A stretch of DNA of 42,492 nt, from the IMG/VR virus record IMGVR_UViG_3300009174_000010, positions 1-42,492 of that record. One strand, given 5' to 3'. This document shows, piece after piece, positions 28,733-42,492 of this stretch. The stretch is from a virus. Numbering within the stretch: position 1 is the first letter of the stretch; the number at the start of each line of letters is the position of its first letter. Below the pieces are notes generated by a model. That model was not told the origin of the DNA. It saw nothing but the letters and a program-made list of their open reading frames with translations, and did no database searches. Both the position numbers and the translations under genes were made by a program.

Positions 28733-29110
28733 ATGGCGACCCGCCGCACTGCAAAGAAACGCTCCGCCGCTGCCGATGAGTTCAAATACATCACGATGGG
28801 CTTTCGCTGTTACCGCAAGCACGCGGACCTCATCGAGCGAGCTGCGGCGTTGGTTCCCGTGAGCAACTCGAACTACATGCGGCGCATCGTCATCAACCAA
28901 GCAGCGGCGGATCTCGACGAAACGCCTCCCGACTTCTCAGAGCTTGGAGGTAGCGCGAGCCTCATCTCTGACGCAGCGAAAAAACGCGGTCTGACTGTCG
29001 CCGAATTCACCAAGCAGGCCGCGCGCGCTGCCGCAGCCGCCGAGCTCTCGACGCCTCCCGACCCGCCGCCATGGCCAGCAGGCAGACTCCCGCCACGCGG
29101 CGGACGCTAG
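28733..29110 (+). CDS. Ribbon-helix-helix-like DNA-binding protein
   Basis: The ATG at 28733 has AAGG about 8 bases upstream; an in-frame ATG at 28589 would run through the promoter region and is less likely. The 125-residue product has a basic N terminus (MATRRTAKKRSAAADEF), then YITMGFRCYRKHADLIERAA (beta strand plus helix A) and SNSNYMRRIVINQAAADL (helix B), the order of Arc/MetJ or DUF1778 folds. The C terminus is Ala/Pro-rich. It is the only + strand gene inside the late block. Its stop interleaves with the terminase stop at CTAG. A regulator of late or lysogenic genes is likely. Confidence 0.65.
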   Translation: MATRRTAKKRSAAADEFKYITMGFRCYRKHADLIERAAALVPVSNSNYMRRIVINQAAADLDETPPDFSELGGSASLISDAAKKRGLTVAEFTKQAARAAAAAELSTPPDPPPWPAGRLPPRGGR

Positions 29111-31608
29111 CCATACGGGTCGATTGCGCCGCGGTTGCCGGCTGCCCCCGCATACGGATCCATCGACTCGCCTCGCCCGCGCTGGTTTCCCTCTGGCGCA
29201 GGCGGCAGCTCTTCTAAGACGCGCTGTTCCCAGCACGCAAGGGCGCAGGCGTCGTACCGGTCGGGGCTGCGATGCAGCACCTTGATCAATACATCCTTGG
29301 GCGTGAGCTTCGACCGCTCGCCCTTGGGCGTGAGCTTCATCTTCAGTTCTAGCGCATGCAGTTCCGGGCCGAGCTTCAGATCGGTAGGTATCGCGCCGCC
29401 GGCGCGCATCCAGCTCGCCATGTTGCCGGCAAGCTCGTCGCGCCACCGGTCATAAATCAGCGGCTCTCGCTGCGCGTTGCTCGAGCTGCGAATGCCAAAC
29501 ACACGCATCACGCCCGGGTTGCTCGCTTCATACTGACGAAAGCGAGAGACGATGCCGGCGCCAACGCCTTCCGAATCAATGTTCACCGTCGCCGTCTCGC
29601 CAGGTCTGCCTAACTCACGAAGCAAATTCAGGGCTTCGCTCAAGTGCCCATCTTCATCGAGACCACGCTTAGCGTACAGCTTCAGAATGCGCTGACCTCG
29701 TCGGGCGGCGAATGCTGACTCGTCGCCAACGCCGCTCGGCCCCGCAGGGTCGATGCCGATGAATAGCGGGCCATCGTCGAGCACGTCTTCGAAGCGCTCT
29801 TCTGCCTCGCTGATAAGCTGCATCGAGAAGAGCTTGCCATCTTCGCCGAGCGCGTGAAGGCCAAGCACGCGCACTTTGTAGAACGCTGAATCTTCGCCCC
29901 ATTCGAGCTTGCGCGCCTCACACCATTCGAGCGTTGCGAGTCCTTTGACGACGACACGCCCTTCGACGCAATTAGGCGTCTCGAGCGAGCTAATGCGCAT
30001 CGTCTTGTAATTGCCGTGCTGCGCTTGCGTCTCGTCGTCGCTCTTCTGCTTGCGATAAAACGCGTCGTAAAACTCGCCCTCGTTTCGCGTCGGATTGCCG
30101 ACGAGAAGCAGATGACCGCCGCCGGCAAGGTTGCCCTTCAACGCGATGAAGATCGAAGTACCAACGCCGCTCGCCTCTTCGACGATGAACATGATGTTCT
30201 CGCCAGCGAGACCCGCCGTGCTCTCTGCGTCCTTCGCCGTGAAGCCTGAGACCTGACGGAAGTCGTCCGAGTGCATGCCGCCCTTGGCTGACTCTTTGAC
30301 GTATCCTTCTATCTTCGCCGAGTGGTTACACGGCGCGTGGATGTAGTCGGCGCGTGTCGCCGTCTTGTTGAACTCTTTGCAATCGAAGCACACGCCGCTC
30401 TCGGCAATGCGCATCTTGAGCTCGCGCCAAACAACCTCGTTCAGCTGCCGATCCGTCGGCGCCGTGATGAACACGCGGGCATTAGGAAACGAAGAGTAAA
30501 ACCAGAGCGCTATCCCTGCGACCGAGTAGCTCTTCGACACGCGATGCCCCGAAGCGCAGGCGTTCCAATCGTTATCTTGCACATTGAGCAAGAGCTCTCG
30601 CTGCCGGTCCCACGGCTTGCAGCCGAGTATGTAGTAGAAGAAACCTTCGATGTCTTTTTGAAAGCGCACGCAAGGCCAAGTGATCTGACTCACGGCTTTG
30701 AGCTCGCGCAGCATCTCGACGGCGAAAGGCTCGGTCAACGGCGCAAGCGTCTCTTTGGCGCACTCGAGCGCCTCGAGATCTGCGCGGAGCACCGCGCCCG
30801 TGTCAAACACGGCTTGCTTCCACGTGTCCGTACCGAAGAGCTCCTTCAGAGTCGAGCCGCCGAGCGTCGCCTTCTTGAGCAGCCGCGCAACCGTGTTTGC
30901 CTGAACGTCGAACTTGCTTGCGCGCTGCACGTTGCCGAGCGCCATGCGCGCAGCGGCTTCCGTACGGAGCGACGTTTGCAGTCGCTCGAGCTCCTTACGA
31001 CACGCGCGCAGCTCGACGACGGCGCCGGCGGTTGGTTGGTCCGGAAGGGCTTCCAAGATGCCGGCGTGCAGTTGAGGGTCAACCGCGAGCAGTTCAACGA
31101 GTGCCTTCCGCATCTCGCGAAAGCCGACGTGACACACAACGCGCTCGCGCTCCGTAAGCGTCTCGAGCGCTTCGTCGATGCGCGTCGCGATGGCACGCAT
31201 CTCGATCTGATTGGCCGGCAGCAGCTCGGAATCAGTCAGCCCCGCTTTGCGCGCGAGCCTCATTCCCTCGAGCAACGTCGCCGGCGGGTCGACGGTATTA
31301 CCTCTTCGAGCGGCACGCGCGGTCAAGCGCTCGACGACGTTCGGCACCGCTCGAGTAGGTAGTACCGGCGTAGCGCGCTCGACCTGGTTGGGTAGTACCG
31401 GCGCCGGCGGCGCGCGCCGCCAAGCGGTTGGCGCAATTCCCCAAAGCTTGAAGAGCTTCGAAGCGAGTTCATCGAGCGGTTTGATCTCACCCTTCTCGAG
31501 CTTCGAAACGGCGGTACGCGACACGCCGAGCGCTTTCGCTTTCTTCACTTGGCTGAGTTCAATTGCAGCCAGAGCGACCGACCCTTCGCTCTCGTCGAGC
31601 TTGCCCAC
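29107..31608 (-). CDS. terL: Large terminase subunit with N-terminal XRE-type HTH
   Basis: I place the start at GTG 31608 with AGGGG upstream (833 residues); a TTG at 31692 lacks a ribosome binding site. Residues about 12-50 form an XRE-type HTH: IELSQVKKAKALGVSRTAVSKLEKG. A helical middle of roughly 250 residues follows. The ATPase has Walker A-like CASGHRVSKS (351-360), Walker B IMFIVEEA (472-479) and motif III LLVGNPT. The nuclease has FIGIDPAG (D620), GDESA, VNIDSEGVGAG (D678) and DRYDACA (D786). TerL motors usually have about 450-600 residues and recruit a separate TerS. I see no separate TerS gene here, so the N-terminal region may supply DNA recognition. Confidence 0.87.
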   Translation of the reverse strand: MGKLDESEGSVALAAIELSQVKKAKALGVSRTAVSKLEKGEIKPLDELASKLFKLWGIAPTAWRRAPPAPVLPNQVERATPVLPTRAVPNVVERLTARAARRGNTVDPPATLLEGMRLARKAGLTDSELLPANQIEMRAIATRIDEALETLTERERVVCHVGFREMRKALVELLAVDPQLHAGILEALPDQPTAGAVVELRACRKELERLQTSLRTEAAARMALGNVQRASKFDVQANTVARLLKKATLGGSTLKELFGTDTWKQAVFDTGAVLRADLEALECAKETLAPLTEPFAVEMLRELKAVSQITWPCVRFQKDIEGFFYYILGCKPWDRQRELLLNVQDNDWNACASGHRVSKSYSVAGIALWFYSSFPNARVFITAPTDRQLNEVVWRELKMRIAESGVCFDCKEFNKTATRADYIHAPCNHSAKIEGYVKESAKGGMHSDDFRQVSGFTAKDAESTAGLAGENIMFIVEEASGVGTSIFIALKGNLAGGGHLLLVGNPTRNEGEFYDAFYRKQKSDDETQAQHGNYKTMRISSLETPNCVEGRVVVKGLATLEWCEARKLEWGEDSAFYKVRVLGLHALGEDGKLFSMQLISEAEERFEDVLDDGPLFIGIDPAGPSGVGDESAFAARRGQRILKLYAKRGLDEDGHLSEALNLLRELGRPGETATVNIDSEGVGAGIVSRFRQYEASNPGVMRVFGIRSSSNAQREPLIYDRWRDELAGNMASWMRAGGAIPTDLKLGPELHALELKMKLTPKGERSKLTPKDVLIKVLHRSPDRYDACALACWEQRVLEELPPAPEGNQRGRGESMDPYAGAAGNRGAIDPYG

Positions 31609-31616
31609 TACATCGC

Positions 31617-31673
31617 CCCTGCAACCGCGCAACGTTCTGCGGGTTCTCTCGACGATTGCACCCTGCAACCGCG
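31617..31673 (-). repeat. Direct repeat CCCTGCAACCGCG x2 at terminase start
   Basis: The 13-base sequence occurs at 31617-31629 and 31661-31673, 44 bases apart (about four helical turns), just upstream of the HTH-terminase start. The distal copy overlaps a palindrome TTGCA-CCC-TGCAA (31656-31668). Such paired sites are candidates for operator or packaging-site recognition by the HTH of the terminase. Confidence 0.5.
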
Positions 31674-31751
31674 ACGCGAGAACCCGGCGCAAAATAACGC
31701 GCGGGGGGGCGCAGGGCCATCAGAGCGCCTGCACTGTTTTTGCGCACCTTT

Positions 31752-32104: not shown

Positions 32105-32271
32105 CACGGCCACCCAAAGAACCAACGCACGAAGAGCACGATACCTGCGCCAACACAGCCAAGCAGCACACTGCCAACGACCAACAACGCGCAAGCCGCG
32201 AGCATGCTGAACGCTTCGGCTAAGCCTTCGCCGTGCGCGCCGAAGACCCACACGAAAGCGCGGCGAATCAC
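32104..32271 (-). CDS. Small membrane protein, 55 aa
   Basis: The GTG at 32271 overlaps the stop of the upstream RHH gene (GTGA); a GTG at 32298 would add nine residues. The product begins MIRRAFVWVFGAHGEG and has a long hydrophobic stretch MLAACALLVVGSVLLGCVGAGIVLFVRWFF, long enough for one or two tight membrane helices. There is no signal cleavage site. A small inner-membrane protein in a control cluster may serve in superinfection exclusion; that is inference. Confidence 0.6.
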   Translation of the reverse strand: MIRRAFVWVFGAHGEGLAEAFSMLAACALLVVGSVLLGCVGAGIVLFVRWFFGWP

Positions 32272-32462
32272 GCCGCCGACCTGCGAGCTCGACCGCACGC
32301 GGCTTCGCGAATGAACACCGCGACATCCTTGCCGGCGGCTTCAGCGCCGCGACGAATCAACGCATCTTCGGCTTCGCTAAACCCAATCGTTCGGCGATGG
32401 TGCTGCCTTGGTTGATTGCGCTGGTCGTAGGGCCCGTACTTCTTGGCTCGCAGTTTCGACAT
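32268..32462 (-). CDS. Ribbon-helix-helix-like small regulator, 64 aa
   Basis: The product begins MSKLRAKKYGPYDQRNQP, then HHRRTIGFSEAEDALIRRGAEAAGKDVAVFIREAACG. RTIGFS would be the DNA-contacting strand, EAEDALIRRGAEAAG helix A and DVAVFIREAACG helix B. This is the size and order of CopG/DUF1778-type repressors, often antitoxins or phage regulators. No toxin gene is adjacent: the neighbour downstream is a membrane protein. It probably regulates its own cluster or the divergent replication operon. Confidence 0.6.
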   Translation of the reverse strand: MSKLRAKKYGPYDQRNQPRQHHRRTIGFSEAEDALIRRGAEAAGKDVAVFIREAACGRARRSAA

Positions 32463-32807: not shown

Positions 32808-33043
32808 CGACGACCGTCCGACGACCGTCCGACGACCGTCGACGACCCTTGTTTTAGGCTCGACGACCCAAACGACGACCGTCGACGACCGATCCGGGTC
32901 GTCGGCTATCGAATTCGAGAAATAGCGAGCTTTTTGCGTATGGTCACCCGACGACCGTCGACGACCCACCGACGACCCTATTTCTCTAGTGCTTTTTGAT
33001 ACTTTTTAGGCCCGCCGACCAATCGACTTTGACCCCTCACGAT
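32808..33043. other. Candidate replication origin: helically phased CGACGACC iterons with AT-rich segments
   Basis: The gene-free spacer has ten direct copies of CGACGACC, starting at 32808, 32819, 32830, 32840, 32861, 32873, 32883, 32949, 32959 and 32970, and one inverted copy at 32897. Most spacings are 10-12 bases, one helical turn. The array is split by an AT-rich stretch (32909-32940) and followed by another (32978-33008). GAGAAATAG (32917) and CTATTTCTC (32978) are inverted copies of each other, and GCTTTTTG occurs twice (32929, 32991). Downstream lies the primase-ATPase gene. Iterons plus unwinding elements next to a replicase are typical of origins; an operator for the divergent genes is the alternative. 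Confidence 0.6.
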
Positions 33044-33167
33044 TGTCTTGGGAACCGCAGGGCCGGACGCGCAAAAGCCCAATCCGCCGCGTCAACAATC
33101 TCGCTACTCTGTTGACGTTGCATGCAAGCATGTGTCATCAATGCTGCCCATGCTGACCCCTCACGAT
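33030..33167 (+). repeat. Direct repeat TGACCCCTCACGAT (two copies)
   Basis: Exact 14-base copies lie at 33030-33043 and 33154-33167, 124 bases apart. The second is inside the first codons of the small HTH gene. Between them is a perfect palindrome, TTGCATGCAA (33118-33127), next to TTGACG. Together they look like regulatory sites for the rightward operon. Confidence 0.45.
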
Positions 33168-33338
33168 CTGCGACGCCTCGCCGTCGCTGCCGCAGTCGAC
33201 CCTCGCACCGTAACGCGCTGGCTTGCGGGGCTCGCGGGGCCGGCGGACATCGACGCGCGTTTGACCAAAGCCGCAGCCGAGCTCGGCATTCAACGCAGCC
33301 CCGCAGCCGTCACCGCAATCAAGCCGCCGCGCGCCTGA
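33141..33338 (+). CDS. Small HTH protein at head of replication operon
   Basis: From ATG 33141 the product has 65 residues: MLPMLTPHDLRRLAVAAAVD, PRTVTRWLAG, then DIDARLTKAAAELGI. RRLAVAAAVDPRTVTRWLAG is an HTH with the turn at VDP, shared with the protein at 1862-2068 (AARAEVDPRTVEKYL). Other in-frame starts are TTG 33048, GTG 33132 and ATG 33150; none has a Shine-Dalgarno, so a leaderless mRNA is possible. It is three bases upstream of the primase gene start. Likely a repressor of the operon or an origin-binding accessory. Confidence 0.6.
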   Translation: MLPMLTPHDLRRLAVAAAVDPRTVTRWLAGLAGPADIDARLTKAAAELGIQRSPAAVTAIKPPRA

Positions 33339-33341
33339 CCC

Positions 33342-35432
33342 ATGCACGGCAAGCCACTACCCGCGGCGCAAGCTGCGGCGATAGAGTATTGCGCGCACGG
33401 TTGGCGCATCGTTCCGGTTTCGCGGCGCACCAAGCGCCCAACAGACGACGGCTGGCCTGAGAACCATTACGAGCCCGGCGACATCGGCGACGGAAACGTC
33501 GGCGTGATTCTCGGCCCCGTGAGCGGGCACCTTTGCGACGTTGATATCGACTCGCATTGGGCGCTCGAGCTCGCACCGTACTTTCTACCGCCGACGCTCA
33601 CGTTTGGGCGCGCGAGCAAGCCCGCGAGTCATTGGCTTTACGTGTGCGAAGGCGCACGCAGCATCAAACGCAAGTTCGCGCGCGAAGATTCAGTCGAGAT
33701 GATTGAGATCCGCGCCAAGAACGCAGCCAACGACAAGTGCGGACACCAGAGCGTTTTCCCTGGCTCCGTTCACGAGAGCGGCGAGTCGATTGAATGGTCA
33801 GAAGGCTGCAAGCACGAAGAGCCGCAACGCGTTGACGCCGGCGAGCTCTCTTGGTGCGTCGCAAAGCTCACGGTTGCAAGCATCATCGCCGAAGGATGGC
33901 AAGAGGGCTCGCAGCGCAACGCCAAGAGCATGGCCTACGCCGGCGGGCTGCTCGAGCGCGGCTGGAGCGCCGAAGAAGTGCGAGATCTGCTGCAAGCCGT
34001 GCGCGAAGTCGCGGGCGACGACGAGCAGAGCGCGCGCAAGAACGAAGCGGCCGTCGAGCGCACGATACTCGCGTACGAGAACGGCACGAAGGTCACGGGC
34101 TTTGGCTCCCTAGTCGCCGAAGGCGTCGTCGACAAGAGCGTCGTTTCGGATATTGAGAGGCACGCGAAGACGCCGGCGCAGCTGCAACGCGACCTGAAGC
34201 TCGCAAGCACTAGAGCAGGCAAGCAGCTGCTCGAGCGGATGATTGCCGAGGCGCAGGACACTGACGCGATGATGGGTGTTGCAGATCGCCTCGCCGAGAT
34301 TGCGCAGACGGGCAGCGCAAAAGTCGTCACGCCTACCGAAGGGGTTTCACGCCTCGGGCGCGTTGTGGACTTCACGACGGATGCCGAGCCCATCAAATAC
34401 GTGTGCGAAGGGCTAGGCATCGCGCCCGGAAAAATCTCTTCGATTGGCGGTTATCCAGGCACGGGCAAAGGCCCTTTTTTAGACCTGTTTGCGTTGTGCG
34501 TCGCAAGCGGTCGACCGTTCCTAGGTCACGCAGTCGAACGCCGAAAAGTTTGCTTCCTGGACGCAGAGACCGGCATGCTCGTGGAGACGCGCTTGAAACG
34601 AATGTGCAACGCGCTCGGCATTGACCGTGCTGCACTACAAGAGGGGGAATGGCTGACGCTGATTCACGCGCAGCCTCCGATTGACGACGAATATTGCGGC
34701 TTGCTTGAAACGATGCTCGAGCGCGACATGCTGCTCTGCATCGACAGCTATACGAGCGCCGTGCTCGGGGATCAGAACGATTCGACGATAGCCGAGACGG
34801 CGTTTCGTTTGGGCCGAATGAGCTCCGCGCTTGGTGTGTCTGTCGTTGTCGCGACGCACGAGAAGAAGTCGCAGAACGGCAAGCGCGTTGACGATCTCGA
34901 GATGGTCTCGGGACACAACGCGCTTGCCGCCTCGATGCAATGCGCGATCTCGCTGACCCGCCCCGACGACACAGACAAGAAGCTGATTGAAGTGCGGTGC
35001 GCTCGAGCACCGGAAGAGCCGTTTCAGACGTTCCGGATTAGGTGGGAAGACGTGACGGAGCCAGAAGCCAAAGACACACGAGGCGGCAAGCTCAAGGCAG
35101 AGAAGTGGGGCCTGCGCGCCGTCGTCGAAGCGAGCCTCGAGATTGCGCCGATGACGGTCGAAGAGATGCGCAAAGCAATCGAAGCCGAAGAAGGTCCGTT
35201 AATTGCTAAGATGCAAGCGCACTATCCGGGCGGTCAACAAGTGACTGTGTCCGAGCTCGTGGGCAGCTCCGGCAACAAGAACGCGAACAACAAGCGGTCG
35301 GCCGTGCGCAATCTCGTGCAGTCGGGTCGGCTCCTTGCCAATTACCATTGGAAGCAGGGGCGAGGCGTGCAGAAGAAACAACTCGTTTGGCTGCCCGGGC
35401 CGCATTCAGAGATCGGCGTAGTTCAGCGCTAA
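33342..35432 (+). CDS. Primase-polymerase/RecA-like ATPase replication protein
   Basis: This 696-residue protein has an N-terminal Prim-Pol (archaeo-eukaryotic primase) domain: GNVGVILGPVSGHLCDVDID (acidic D66, D68), KPASHWLYV (H97), EMIEIRAKN (E122) and CGHQSVFPGSVHESGE. A helical linker (about 190-330) follows, then a RecA-like ATPase with SSIGGYPGTGKGPFL (Walker A, K376), VCFLDAETG, and DMLLCIDSYTSAV (Walker B, D468). HEKKSQNGKRVDDLEMVSGHNALAASM resembles the motif III region of RepA-type helicases. The C terminus has winged-helix character (VSELVGSSGNKNANNKRSAV). It would unwind and prime phage DNA. The Walker A ends GKG rather than GKS/T. Confidence 0.87.
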   Translation: MHGKPLPAAQAAAIEYCAHGWRIVPVSRRTKRPTDDGWPENHYEPGDIGDGNVGVILGPVSGHLCDVDIDSHWALELAPYFLPPTLTFGRASKPASHWLYVCEGARSIKRKFAREDSVEMIEIRAKNAANDKCGHQSVFPGSVHESGESIEWSEGCKHEEPQRVDAGELSWCVAKLTVASIIAEGWQEGSQRNAKSMAYAGGLLERGWSAEEVRDLLQAVREVAGDDEQSARKNEAAVERTILAYENGTKVTGFGSLVAEGVVDKSVVSDIERHAKTPAQLQRDLKLASTRAGKQLLERMIAEAQDTDAMMGVADRLAEIAQTGSAKVVTPTEGVSRLGRVVDFTTDAEPIKYVCEGLGIAPGKISSIGGYPGTGKGPFLDLFALCVASGRPFLGHAVERRKVCFLDAETGMLVETRLKRMCNALGIDRAALQEGEWLTLIHAQPPIDDEYCGLLETMLERDMLLCIDSYTSAVLGDQNDSTIAETAFRLGRMSSALGVSVVVATHEKKSQNGKRVDDLEMVSGHNALAASMQCAISLTRPDDTDKKLIEVRCARAPEEPFQTFRIRWEDVTEPEAKDTRGGKLKAEKWGLRAVVEASLEIAPMTVEEMRKAIEAEEGPLIAKMQAHYPGGQQVTVSELVGSSGNKNANNKRSAVRNLVQSGRLLANYHWKQGRGVQKKQLVWLPGPHSEIGVVQR

Positions 35433-36288: not shown

Positions 36289-36536
36289 TGTCTATACCCC
36301 GCCCGATCATTACCATTCCGCGCGTTCGCATCGGGCGAGGCAAAGACAGAACCAAGAACCTGCTTGGCAACACAGAGCTTGCCGGTTGGGAAGTAACGCG
36401 CGCCGCTCCGAGCATCGGTCACGGCGCGCGTTGGGTTTTCAAGCACAGCTGCGGAGCCGAGCGCATCATCGAAGCCAAGCAGTTTCGACAATACTTGCGC
36501 ACAGGCACTCGACCGCGCTGCGAGGCGTGCCGATGA
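36288..36536 (+). CDS. Small zinc-ribbon-like protein, 82 aa
   Basis: Starts ATG 36288 in TGATG, overlapping the upstream stop by one base. The product opens MSIPRPIITIPRVRIGRGKD and ends with FKHSCGAERIIEAKQFRQYLRTGTRPRCEACR. HSCG and CEAC form a half-ribbon pattern seen in small phage proteins that bind DNA. The N terminus is basic. It precedes the Cas4-like nuclease and overlaps it by four bases (ATGA), so they are likely co-expressed in fixed ratio. Confidence 0.6.
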   Translation: MSIPRPIITIPRVRIGRGKDRTKNLLGNTELAGWEVTRAAPSIGHGARWVFKHSCGAERIIEAKQFRQYLRTGTRPRCEACR

Positions 36537-37774
36537 GCTGTCCTGCGCGCAACGCGAGTTACAAGCCGCGCGAGCAGGCGTCGCCGTCGGCCATCTCGAC
36601 GGCAGAGCTTTGCGACCGCAAGTGGTTCTATATCTACGTCGAAGGGCGCAAAGAACTAAAGCTCACTTGGGCACAAGCGAAGCGCATCCCGAAACCGAAA
36701 GGCAAAGATGCCGTCAAGGCGTGGAACAAGCTGCGCCGGCCGGCTATCGGCCACGAAGGGCACAGCATCATTGAGCGCTGGTACGAGAGCTTCCGGCCGG
36801 GCGCGAAGCCCGCGGCTATCGACTGGAACGACCTACCCGGCCGCGTGATGCTCGCAGGCCTTCCGTTGTTGCCGCATCCTTCGACGCTGCGCGACTGGTT
36901 TCTCGAGCGCCCCGTAGCCAAAGACTTTACGTCGCGCGTCGTCCCCGGTTTGAACTACGAATTCAACGGCTACATCGATCTCGTGCCCGTCGGCAAAGAC
37001 GACACGTTTCGCGTCATCGATCACAAGACGACGAGCTCTTTCGATTGGGTGAAAACGCCGCAAGAGCTCATCGAAGACCCGCAGGGCATCGTGTACCCGC
37101 TCGACGTGATGCTGCGGCACAACCTCGAGCGCATCGCATGCCGTTGGGTCTACTACCGGACGGAAGGGACGCCGAAAGCACGCGCGGTCGACTTCATGGT
37201 CACGCGGGAAGGGGCGCTCAGGCGAGCCCTGCCGTTGGTCAACCGCGGCGCCGAATTGGTCAACAACATACGAAACAAGTTGACCGTTGACCAGATGCCT
37301 GCGAATACTGCGGCATGCGACCAATTCGGCGGTTGCATGTACCACCACTCACGAGGCGGACCGTGCGAGGCACGGCGCTCCGTGGGCAAGATCCTGCGCG
37401 TTATGCGCGCATCAACCAAAGCAGAGCAGGAGAGAACAATCATGGGCTTTCGTAAAAATGCACAAGCGGCCGGCGTTATCGGAGGCGGAGACAAGCCCGC
37501 CAACACTCGCGCAGCCGCGCCAGCCGAAGACGCCGCTTCAAGCGAGCCGGCGCAGGAACAAGGCGAGACGAGCGAGGCGCAGGATTCGCAACAGAGCGAA
37601 GCGCCAGCCCGCGGCGCCCGCCGTGGCGGTGCTCGTCGACGCGGCGCAAGCGATACCGACGCCGGCACCATCTCTCTCGTGTTCGAGAGCGGCGCGACTA
37701 TCGCGATTCCCCAAGGCTCGGCGCTGTACGAACAAGCGGCCGCGGTGCACTCGGCTTTCTTCCCTGCTGAGTGA
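36533..37774 (+). CDS. Cas4/RecB-like Fe-S PD-(D/E)XK nuclease
   Basis: The 413-residue product has the full Cas4/AddB-type nuclease layout: C27 (TAELCDRKWFY), H77 region (GHEGHSIIERW), YEFNGYIDLVPV with D149, FRVIDHKTTSS with D163 and K165, DPQGIVYPLDV with Q184 and Y188, and three C-terminal Cys (C262, C268, C278 in ACDQFGGCMYHHSRGGPC) for a 4Fe-4S cluster. Such enzymes resect DNA ends. Here this would support recombination with the SSB-like protein and helicase. From residue 304 (MGFRKNAQAAG) a low-complexity linker and short domain follow, which may also be made alone. Confidence 0.8.
   Translation: MSCPARNASYKPREQASPSAISTAELCDRKWFYIYVEGRKELKLTWAQAKRIPKPKGKDAVKAWNKLRRPAIGHEGHSIIERWYESFRPGAKPAAIDWNDLPGRVMLAGLPLLPHPSTLRDWFLERPVAKDFTSRVVPGLNYEFNGYIDLVPVGKDDTFRVIDHKTTSSFDWVKTPQELIEDPQGIVYPLDVMLRHNLERIACRWVYYRTEGTPKARAVDFMVTREGALRRALPLVNRGAELVNNIRNKLTVDQMPANTAACDQFGGCMYHHSRGGPCEARRSVGKILRVMRASTKAEQERTIMGFRKNAQAAGVIGGGDKPANTRAAAPAEDAASSEPAQEQGETSEAQDSQQSEAPARGARRGGARRRGASDTDAGTISLVFESGATIAIPQGSALYEQAAAVHSAFFPAE
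37442..37774 (+). CDS. Possible separately translated C-terminal segment (MGFR protein)
   Basis: In-frame ATG 37442 inside the nuclease gene has AGGAG with 9 bases spacing. The 110-residue product starts MGFRKNAQAAGVIGGG and ends TISLVFESGATIAIPQGSALYEQ. The start region and MGFR N terminus resemble the SSB-like gene at 39613 (AGGAG, MGFRQAASG). The segment may be a free protein, or a former gene fused to the nuclease. Evidence is the ribosome binding site and this resemblance only. Confidence 0.4.
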   Translation: MGFRKNAQAAGVIGGGDKPANTRAAAPAEDAASSEPAQEQGETSEAQDSQQSEAPARGARRGGARRRGASDTDAGTISLVFESGATIAIPQGSALYEQAAAVHSAFFPAE

Positions 37775-40252: not shown

Positions 40253-40399
40253 ATGAAAGAAACGGCTCATGTCGCTTACGATGCGTATGGCGACTTCGTT
40301 GGGTGGAAGAATTACGCCGGCGCGCCGATGCCCCAGTGGCACGAGCTGCCCGACAAGATCCGCGATGCGTGGCGCGCTGCTTGCGAGGCGATTACGTGA
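40253..40399 (+). CDS. Small conserved-type phage protein, 48 aa
   Basis: ATG 40253 has GGAGA upstream (CAGCTGGAGATAGACC). The product starts MKETAHVAYDAYGDFVGWKN and includes GAPMPQWHELPDKIRDAWRAA. The phrase 'P.W..LP..iR.AW..A' is a common theme of tiny phage proteins of unknown function encoded in early operons. It overlaps the exonuclease start by one base (TGATG). Confidence 0.65.
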   Translation: MKETAHVAYDAYGDFVGWKNYAGAPMPQWHELPDKIRDAWRAACEAIT

Positions 40400-41061
40400 T
40401 GACCGAATCGCATATCATTCACTTCGTCGACACTGAAACGACGGGCTTGCTCGACAAGTACCCCGACTCGGAGATCATCGAGCTTGCGATCGTGAAGTGG
40501 CAAGACGGCGATACCGAGACCGTGCTGCACGCGTACATCCAGCCGAAGAAGCCGTGCCCGCCCGAGGCGGCCAAGATCAACCGTTACACGCCGGCGCGCT
40601 GGAAGGCCGAAGGCGCAGAGACTTGGGACATCGCGTGCTCTAAAGAGGTCTCGGCGATGTTAAAGGGCGCTTTCATGGGCGGCAGCAACCCGGCGTTTGA
40701 TCAACAGATGCTCAAAGTCGAGTGCTTCCGCACGGGCCAGCCAATGCCCGATTGGTCGCACCGCAAGCTCGACACGAGCGCGCTCGGCTACATCCTTTGG
40801 GTTTACGACTTGGTGCCGCGCACGGGCTTAGTGACGCTTGCCGAGTACTTTGGCATCGAGCACGACGCACACACGGCACTCGGCGATTGCCTCGCTTCTA
40901 TCAAAGTGTGGGAGTCGTTCTGCGAGCTGTTCATGTACCGCCCGCGGATGATGCGCGAAGCGCTCGAGGCCATCGAGCGCAACGTAGACAAGGCGCCATT
41001 GAGCGCGGCCAAAAACGTGCTGGTGCCAATCATCGAAAGTGGGCTGCGAGGCGAGGGGTGA
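40399..41061 (+). CDS. DEDDh 3'-5' exonuclease (DnaQ-like)
   Basis: The 220-residue protein (ATG 40399; GTG 40396 is possible) has the three Exo motifs: I HFVDTETTGL (D11, E13), II GSNPAFDQQML (D101) and III EHDAHTALGDCLA (H158 to D163, spacing HxxxxD). It is a stand-alone DnaQ-type 3'-5' exonuclease. These proofread for a polymerase or trim 3' ends in recombination. The phage has no family A/B/C polymerase in this window, so it may act with the host enzyme or the Prim-Pol. It overlaps the next small gene by four bases. Confidence 0.85.
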   Translation: MTESHIIHFVDTETTGLLDKYPDSEIIELAIVKWQDGDTETVLHAYIQPKKPCPPEAAKINRYTPARWKAEGAETWDIACSKEVSAMLKGAFMGGSNPAFDQQMLKVECFRTGQPMPDWSHRKLDTSALGYILWVYDLVPRTGLVTLAEYFGIEHDAHTALGDCLASIKVWESFCELFMYRPRMMREALEAIERNVDKAPLSAAKNVLVPIIESGLRGEG

Positions 41062-41569: not shown

Positions 41570-42459
41570 AGAGCGATTCAACCATCGACGTCGACACGGC
41601 GGACACGTGGGAAGTGTACGGCGGGCATTGGCTCGACCACTGGCAAACGCTGGTCGACGTCGCGGAAGTGACGGCGCTCGGCTACCGAAACAAGCGGCTC
41701 AAGGTCGTACTCGCGTCGACCGTCCGGAAGGAGCTGTCGGCGTTCCGGAGATTCCTGCGATGGTGCAAAGAGGCCGGCTACTTGCAGCGAGAGATCAACG
41801 TCCCCGGCGTCCCCGAAAAGACCACGGGGACGCGCTACGCGAAGCGCAGGCGCGGCGCGGCGCCGTCGTTGTCGCCAGAGCAGGCGCAAGCGCTCATCGC
41901 GGCCCTGCGTCCGTACAGCACGAGCCCGAACGTGCCGCCCTTCCCAATCCGCGACCGCTTCGTCGTCGCCTACGCGACCGGCCTGCGGCCCGGCACTCTC
42001 GACCGGCTCTCGTGTCCCGAGCACTACCAGAAGGGCGCCGAGACCCTGCTACTCACGGACGACGCGGACAAGATCCGATGGGGCCGAGAGCTGCCTCTGT
42101 CGAAGGCCGCGCGAGAAGCGCTCGACCGGGTGTGCCCCGAGCGCGGGCTGATCTTCGGCAAGCACGACTACCGCGATGCGCTCGAGCAGGCCGCGAAGTC
42201 GGCGTTGCCAAAGGCCATCGCGGACCGCTTCTGCGGCGCACACTTCCGCTCGGCGGCCGGTACGCACATGCTCGAGGAGAGCGGCAACCTCCCGGGCGTG
42301 CAATTTCTAATGGGCCACAAGCACGTGAGCACGACGGCGCGCTACATCCGTCCCTCGTTTCGCGCTGCGGCAGCAGCACTCCAGGGACGCTCTCAGAATA
42401 CCGGGGACGGCCGACGGACCCAAAAATCAAAAAACAGCGGTGCGAAGGAGAGGACTTGA
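41329..42459 (+). CDS. int: Tyrosine integrase
   Basis: The 376-residue recombinase has an N-terminal arm-binding domain (WRLRRPKGRKVWIVRFTHNGETHDRSTGT), a core-binding domain (about 68-160) and a C-terminal catalytic domain. The catalytic set is R220 (YATGLRPGTL), a possible lysine at K248, R307 in CGAHFRSAAGTHML, H330 in LMGHKHVSTTARYI and nucleophile Y339. The first His of the usual HxxR box is replaced by Ala304. There is no ribosome binding site, so translation is probably coupled to the overlapping Xis-like gene. Its final codons GAKERT and stop lie in the antisense of the tRNA-Leu gene. It catalyses integration into that tRNA. Confidence 0.9.
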   Translation: MSRYAEGWRLRRPKGRKVWIVRFTHNGETHDRSTGTEDEREAGKEAARIYADHVQREPAKRPVIRRGDTPPLEDLIDEWLESDSTIDVDTADTWEVYGGHWLDHWQTLVDVAEVTALGYRNKRLKVVLASTVRKELSAFRRFLRWCKEAGYLQREINVPGVPEKTTGTRYAKRRRGAAPSLSPEQAQALIAALRPYSTSPNVPPFPIRDRFVVAYATGLRPGTLDRLSCPEHYQKGAETLLLTDDADKIRWGRELPLSKAAREALDRVCPERGLIFGKHDYRDALEQAAKSALPKAIADRFCGAHFRSAAGTHMLEESGNLPGVQFLMGHKHVSTTARYIRPSFRAAAAALQGRSQNTGDGRRTQKSKNSGAKERT

Positions 42460-42492
42460 ACCTCCATGGGAGTTACCCCGCTAGCACCTCAA
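42441..42492 (-). tRNA. tRNA-Leu(GAG), 3' part, attachment site
   Basis: Read on the - strand, the window ends with the anticodon loop TTGAGGT (anticodon GAG), a long variable arm with GGGG/CTCC, the T loop TTCAAGT with its 5-bp stem, and the acceptor 3' half CCTTCGCA. CCA is not encoded. The 5' half lies beyond the right edge. The adjoining tyrosine integrase identifies this as the prophage attachment gene, with the core in the 3' part of the tRNA. Confidence 0.9.

Follow-up and report, generated by a model that had tools for sequence, protein, structure and literature searches.

The window, that is, the whole stretch of DNA analysed here, is the complete virus record IMGVR_UViG_3300009174_000010 (42,492 nt). 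Ten direct copies and one inverted copy of CGACGACC (exact matches, both strands) occupy 170 bp of it, at 32808-32977. As the first-pass annotation had placed it, the array lies between divergent operons and upstream of a Prim-Pol/ATPase replicase gene: late genes (terminase, portal, protease and head) run leftward from the array, and an early operon coding for a small helix-turn-helix (HTH)-like protein, the replicase, a PD-(D/E)XK nuclease (36386-37774, plus strand), a probable helicase and a DnaQ-type 3'-5' exonuclease (40303-41061, plus strand) runs rightward. The cumulative GC skew reaches its minimum at ~33 kb, a position confounded with gene direction. An Rfam search gave no match.

The small HTH-like protein (33141-33338, plus strand) is the product of the first gene of the replicase operon; its start codon is uncertain and its Pfam match sub-threshold. 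The probable promoter/operator of this operon (33091-33118, plus strand), recognized by reading with no scan hit, consists of the inverted pair CGTCAACA and TGTTGACG. An exact 14-nt direct repeat, TGACCCCTCACGAT, is found at 33030-33043 and at 33154-33167, the second copy lying at the beginning of the HTH gene. Close to where the leftward genes begin, a 64-aa ribbon-helix-helix-like protein (32268-32462, minus strand) matches the NikA-like family PF21983 under the cut-off (E 1.8e-4). Further along, the 861-aa terminase large subunit ORF (29107-31692, minus strand) carries an HTH_3 match (aa 46-83) and a sub-threshold ECF-sigma-like match (aa 147-275) ahead of the terminase part, and is possibly a small-terminase/regulator fusion or an ORF whose start was called too far upstream.

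The right end of the window holds a tyrosine integrase followed by the antisense 3' half of an apparent tRNA-Leu gene, to which the last 54 nt match at only 85-87%. This segment (42436-42492) is the likely attachment site, the other prophage end being outside the record. The integrase and the tRNA-Leu half at the right end therefore mark the window as an integrated prophage that is truncated at the left. There, at 2-166, lies the only other dense array of the window, a 15-nt tandem repeat that reads as pentapeptide-repeat coding sequence broken off at the contig end.

The replicase gene (33342-35432, plus strand) starts 364 bp past the end of the array. Its product combines an N-terminal Prim-Pol domain (PF09250, aa 13-159; 42.4 bits against a curated cut-off of 22.8) with an AAA_25/DnaB-like ATPase domain (PF13481, aa 344-511) whose Walker A motif is GYPGTGKG and which matches DnaB structures in Foldseek. 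Among 57 relatives, the Prim-Pol residues D70, H97, R124 and H144 are invariant, and D66 and D68 nearly so. The C-terminal region (aa ~600-690) is modelled as helix, strand, helix, helix and two strands, as in winged helices, with a mean pLDDT of 58; this part is also of low confidence in the full-length model, and a fold search with the region modelled alone gave no significant structural match. It is a candidate iteron reader.

The octamer array and its AT-rich blocks

The copies of CGACGACC form two clusters read on the plus strand. The left one (32808-32904) comprises seven direct copies, starting at 32808, 32819, 32830, 32840, 32861, 32873 and 32883, and the inverted copy at 32897-32904; the right one (32949-32977) comprises three direct copies, starting at 32949, 32959 and 32970. 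These exact positions agree with the copy number and with the spacings of 11, 11, 10, 21, 12, 10, 66, 10 and 11 reported at first pass. The accompanying claim that the copies mostly face the same side of the helix holds inside each cluster. The best resultant length for helical phasing is 0.965, a value matched by none of 2000 random placements, yet it is independent evidence only in part because tightly packed 8-mers must sit close together. Eleven of the 24 occurrences of the octamer in the 42.5-kb window fall within these 170 bp. In order-3 Markov genomes, the maximum number of copies of any octamer per ~220 bp was three when one strand was counted (20 genomes) and four when both were (40 genomes).

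Two AT-rich modules had been described along with the array. Both are real, but their AT richness is unequal: 54.5% in the spacer between the clusters (32905-32948) and 69.7% in the block that follows the right cluster (32978-33010), against a window average of 37.8%. The latter block is a putative DNA unwinding element; no 30-bp window of the entire contig is less stable than 32979-33008, which directly follows the last iteron. The feature as a whole was initially given an end at 33008 and reaches ~33010, two bases further. Direct search bore out the presence of GCTTTTTG in both blocks (at 32929-32936 in the spacer); an 8-nt word common to the two arises in 1.6% of shuffles of these blocks. 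The 9-nt inverted pair formed by GAGAAATAG (32917-32925) and CTATTTCTC (32978-32986) was likewise found as described, and such a pair arises in 0.2% of shuffles.

Arrays beside replicase genes in relatives

Single-protein searches with the replicase returned no relatives in viral or genome contigs, and alignments were needed. Of three alignment-based searches, the first yielded 80 viral loci, the second 80 bacterial loci and the third 59 viral loci, 12 of which had come up in the first. The Prim-Pol domain is common to these relatives and the helicase domain varies (VapE, DUF5906, D5 or AAA_25). A DNA scan for two CGACGACC copies 2 bp apart retrieved 64 viral contigs, none with a comparable array. 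A 50-kb relative found through its terminase was set aside, as it offered a weak ATPase match only and one weak 4-copy array.

With an array defined as at least four identical octamers and counted within 700 bp of a Prim-Pol replicase gene, arrays were found at 18 of 67 viral loci (0.236 per kb, versus 0.046 per kb elsewhere) and at 22 of 80 bacterial loci (0.224 versus 0.016 per kb), a density 5 to 14 times that elsewhere. When one mismatch was allowed and shuffled controls were used, the 3' flanks of 28 of 117 replicase genes carried an array, compared with 2 of 249 flanks of other genes (P=3e-13); one of these two exceptions (L139) adjoins a replicase region with a broken reading frame. In the new loci of the third search, a few of which are closely related, the corresponding figures are 16 of 38 and 0 of 58. 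Long intergenic stretches make up the 3' flanks of other genes less often; when intergenic gaps of 100 bp or more serve as the control, the enrichment drops (16/101 versus 13/268, P=0.001). In most of the replicase flanks tested, an array was not found.

Both orientations of the repeat are used in 33 of 38 arrays. Frequently, a cluster of direct copies is followed, after a gap, by a cluster of inverted ones, as in a Myxococcales locus (L202) with three copies of TGCGGGGA, ~60 bp, then three inverted copies. The repeat unit differs by lineage and the spacing is often 9-10 bp; upstream of another Prim-Pol replicase (L134:3083-3570), copies of ACGACTGA form a long array and are often 23 bp apart. 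Array-bearing flanks tend to hold unstable DNA, intergenic DNA being generally AT-richer anyway. Most array-bearing relatives have their array just 3' of the replicase gene, behind the stop codon, whereas here it lies 5' and no array follows 35432. At two loci (L166 and L214), TGCGACGC arrays lie within the replicase reading frame itself, towards its 3' end and ~200 bp before the stop. Across loci, iteron similarity follows replicase similarity (Mantel P=0.0005); this test did not tell whether it is the C-terminus or the N-terminus that varies with the iteron. A GGT/ACC core shared among iterons was rejected as weak (P=0.012 for the word, 0.055 once selection of the commonest word is allowed for).

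Among loci with the same architecture as the window, one from Planctomycetota (L173) reproduces its order: copies of GCGCCAAC stand upstream of a small HTH gene, which the replicase gene follows. Four others have arrays 3' of the replicase gene, made of CCGGGACA in one case (L076; the others are L163 and L164, which are Methylobacterium or Methylocystis loci, and L170), and no array was found at L091, L118, L128, L129, L145, L158 and L181.

The nearest relative found (L236) has a replicase that is 49% identical end to end, preceded as in the window by a small HTH gene (37% identity over 51 aa). At the promoter/operator place of its HTH-replicase operon stand TGTTGACAACG and the palindrome GTAGATGCATGCATCTAC. 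The last 127 nt of its contig repeat the first 127 nt in direct orientation, and this 41-kb genome is therefore most likely a complete circle; gene order is the same as in the window for its early operon and for some genes of the left end. The presence of an array at the matching place in a relative with the same replicase had been set beforehand as a test, and this genome has one, built on another unit: eight copies of CTWAAACCCA lie within 226 bp, with none elsewhere in the 41 kb, in a stretch that is among the least stable of that genome. The array stands where the leftward late genes begin; counted across the contig ends, the replicase follows ~3.0 kb further on. Location at the junction of late and early genes is thus preserved, with changes in sequence and distance.

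Other features of this relative deserve mention. Between divergent genes, at L285:1765-1822, lie three tandem palindromes GGACAGGTGTCC with a 21-bp period, which are absent from the window and are probable repressor operators. Repeated CCCGGCACAAC words adjoin the iteron array (L285:205-270). Finally, a family A DNA polymerase (L283:9385-11616) is found where the window has its integrase and attachment site.

A probable replication origin and its alternatives

In our view, replication of this temperate phage probably starts at the array. The first-pass annotation had proposed origin function as an inference, and the arrays of relatives, together with their enrichment beside Prim-Pol replicases, now lend it support. 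The array itself displays several features of an iteron origin, with mostly direct repeats near one helical turn apart, an AT-rich neighbour and an adjacent replicase gene. No DnaA box (TTWTNCACA, up to one mismatch) was found within 1 kb of it; such boxes are common, not universal, in plasmid iteron origins and are not required of iteron origins broadly.

The strongest rival is an array for transcriptional control, in which a repressor or activator, either the HTH protein (33141-33338) or the ribbon-helix-helix protein (32268-32462), would bind the octamers at divergent early and late promoters. The array does sit between divergent genes, each neighbour coding for a small, putatively DNA-binding protein, and arrays of short repeats are bound by ribbon-helix-helix proteins, omega among them; the array of the nearest relative, too, is found where its late genes begin. 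However, most array-bearing relatives have theirs behind the replicase stop codon and not at a promoter, and the inverted pair of the HTH-replicase promoter in the window is a separate one, over 100 bp away from the array. Moreover, the divergent promoter region of the nearest relative lies elsewhere, seemingly with operators of its own (the three tandem GGACAGGTGTCC), and the ribbon-helix-helix gene has no match in that genome. We regard transcriptional control as unlikely.

That the array stands where the leftward late genes begin, in both the window and its nearest relative, could suggest another phage function close to the late operon, such as packaging or recombination at a site that only neighbours the replicase; in many loci, it is around replicase genes that arrays are enriched, and we give this explanation very little credence. 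Scarcely any is given to a partition site serving an extrachromosomal prophage. A resemblance to parC-type sites lies in direct repeats phased at about one helical turn, and the genome of the nearest relative assembles as a circle, but no ParA-, ParM- or ParB-like protein, nor a ParR-type partner, was found among the early genes scanned (Pfam, PHROGs), and this prophage, having an integrase and a tRNA-gene end, needs no partition.

If the array is an origin, several copies of an initiator would bind the phased CGACGACC iterons in the two clusters, and the bound array would strain and melt the AT-rich 33 bp at 32978-33010. The Prim-Pol/DnaB-like replicase, coded 0.4 kb downstream, would then be loaded at the opened DNA, where it would unwind and prime. 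By analogy with SaPI Rep and SCCmec Cch2, the chances are about even that the initiator is the replicase itself, acting through its C-terminal region; the small HTH protein (33141-33338) is a second candidate. Should the replicase read the iterons, a quick change of specificity would be needed, since the enzymes of the window and of the nearest relative are 49% identical and their iterons differ. Their C-termini share A.RNLVQ.G and differ in the preceding stretch (GNKNANNKRS versus TRPARAK), a change that would suit altered iteron specificity. In another pair of relatives (L135 and L146), with similar iterons, the C-termini (0.49) are more alike than the N-termini (0.22), a pattern that fits C-terminal reading of iterons and is only suggestive. 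The origin logic of most array-bearing relatives may not carry over to the window because their helicase types differ (D5, VapE, DUF5906).

More tentatively, and with some doubt on our part, Prim-Pol replicases of phages and further mobile elements in many bacterial phyla might travel with private, fast-changing arrays of ~8-bp iterons read by the replicase itself. A single protein would then be origin-binding protein, helicase, primase and polymerase, the iteron and its reader would change together within a lineage, and origins could be predicted from the gene alone. The origins of most environmental phages are unknown, and a recurrent array beside a widespread class of replicase offers a simple sequence-based means of predicting them. 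Natural pairs of iterons and replicases (the window and L236; L135 and L146) provide material for understanding how origin specificity changes. If the replicase is its own origin reader, one phage gene and ~200 bp could constitute a self-contained replicon.

Comparison with known replication systems

Replication proteins of related kinds are known from phages and integrating elements. Corynephage BFK20 gp43 is, like the replicase of the window, a phage replication protein of the Prim-Pol clade, and the part of the published account drawn on here describes no iteron array for it (PMC4538821). In AICEs such as SLP1, PF09250 Prim-Pol genes are replication genes of integrating elements, as in this prophage, but the Prim-Pol and the putative replication protein are encoded separately (PMC3218068); the term iteron is absent from that paper. 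PrimPol-PV1/PolpTN2-like replication proteins, known from mobile elements and to which the PF09250 Prim-Pol of the window is treated as a related AEP family, have a primase fused to RepA/DnaB, VirE, D5 or other ATPases (PMC5862659). A C-terminal winged helix is frequent among them, and for PolpTN2 the authors suggest that it may serve in origin recognition, in a text where the term iteron does not occur (PMC5862659).

Phage SPP1 has, at oriL and oriR, direct repeats and an AT-rich unwinding element, with gp38 as origin-binding protein and a DnaB-family helicase (PMC6316719). The window resembles it in the repeats, the AT-rich element, a presumed origin-binding protein and the DnaB-like helicase part. 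Unlike the window, SPP1 uses a separate origin-binding protein, loader and helicase together with the host primase, and its oriL lies inside gene 38.

Closest in arrangement are the origins of staphylococcal elements. According to PMC7581432, which cites Ubeda et al. 2007, the SaPI origin has iterons directly downstream of rep; they are bound by Rep, which carries a DUF927 or D5-type helicase. SaPIs and the window share short iterons beside the gene for an initiator helicase (in the window, a candidate one) that works with, or is fused to, a primase; the window differs in having its array upstream and a DnaB/RecA-like AAA_25 domain fused to the Prim-Pol. In SCCmec, the isolated C-terminal domain of Cch2 binds direct-repeat iterons beside the helicase gene (PMC7581432). 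There too, iterons adjoin a helicase gene and an AEP polymerase works with the helicase, but the iterons are three in number, 5 nt long and downstream, the polymerase is separate and the helicase is of D5 type. As the array departs from the SaPI and SCCmec origins in position and helicase type, it is classed, as a probable origin, under the broad kind of iteron origins.
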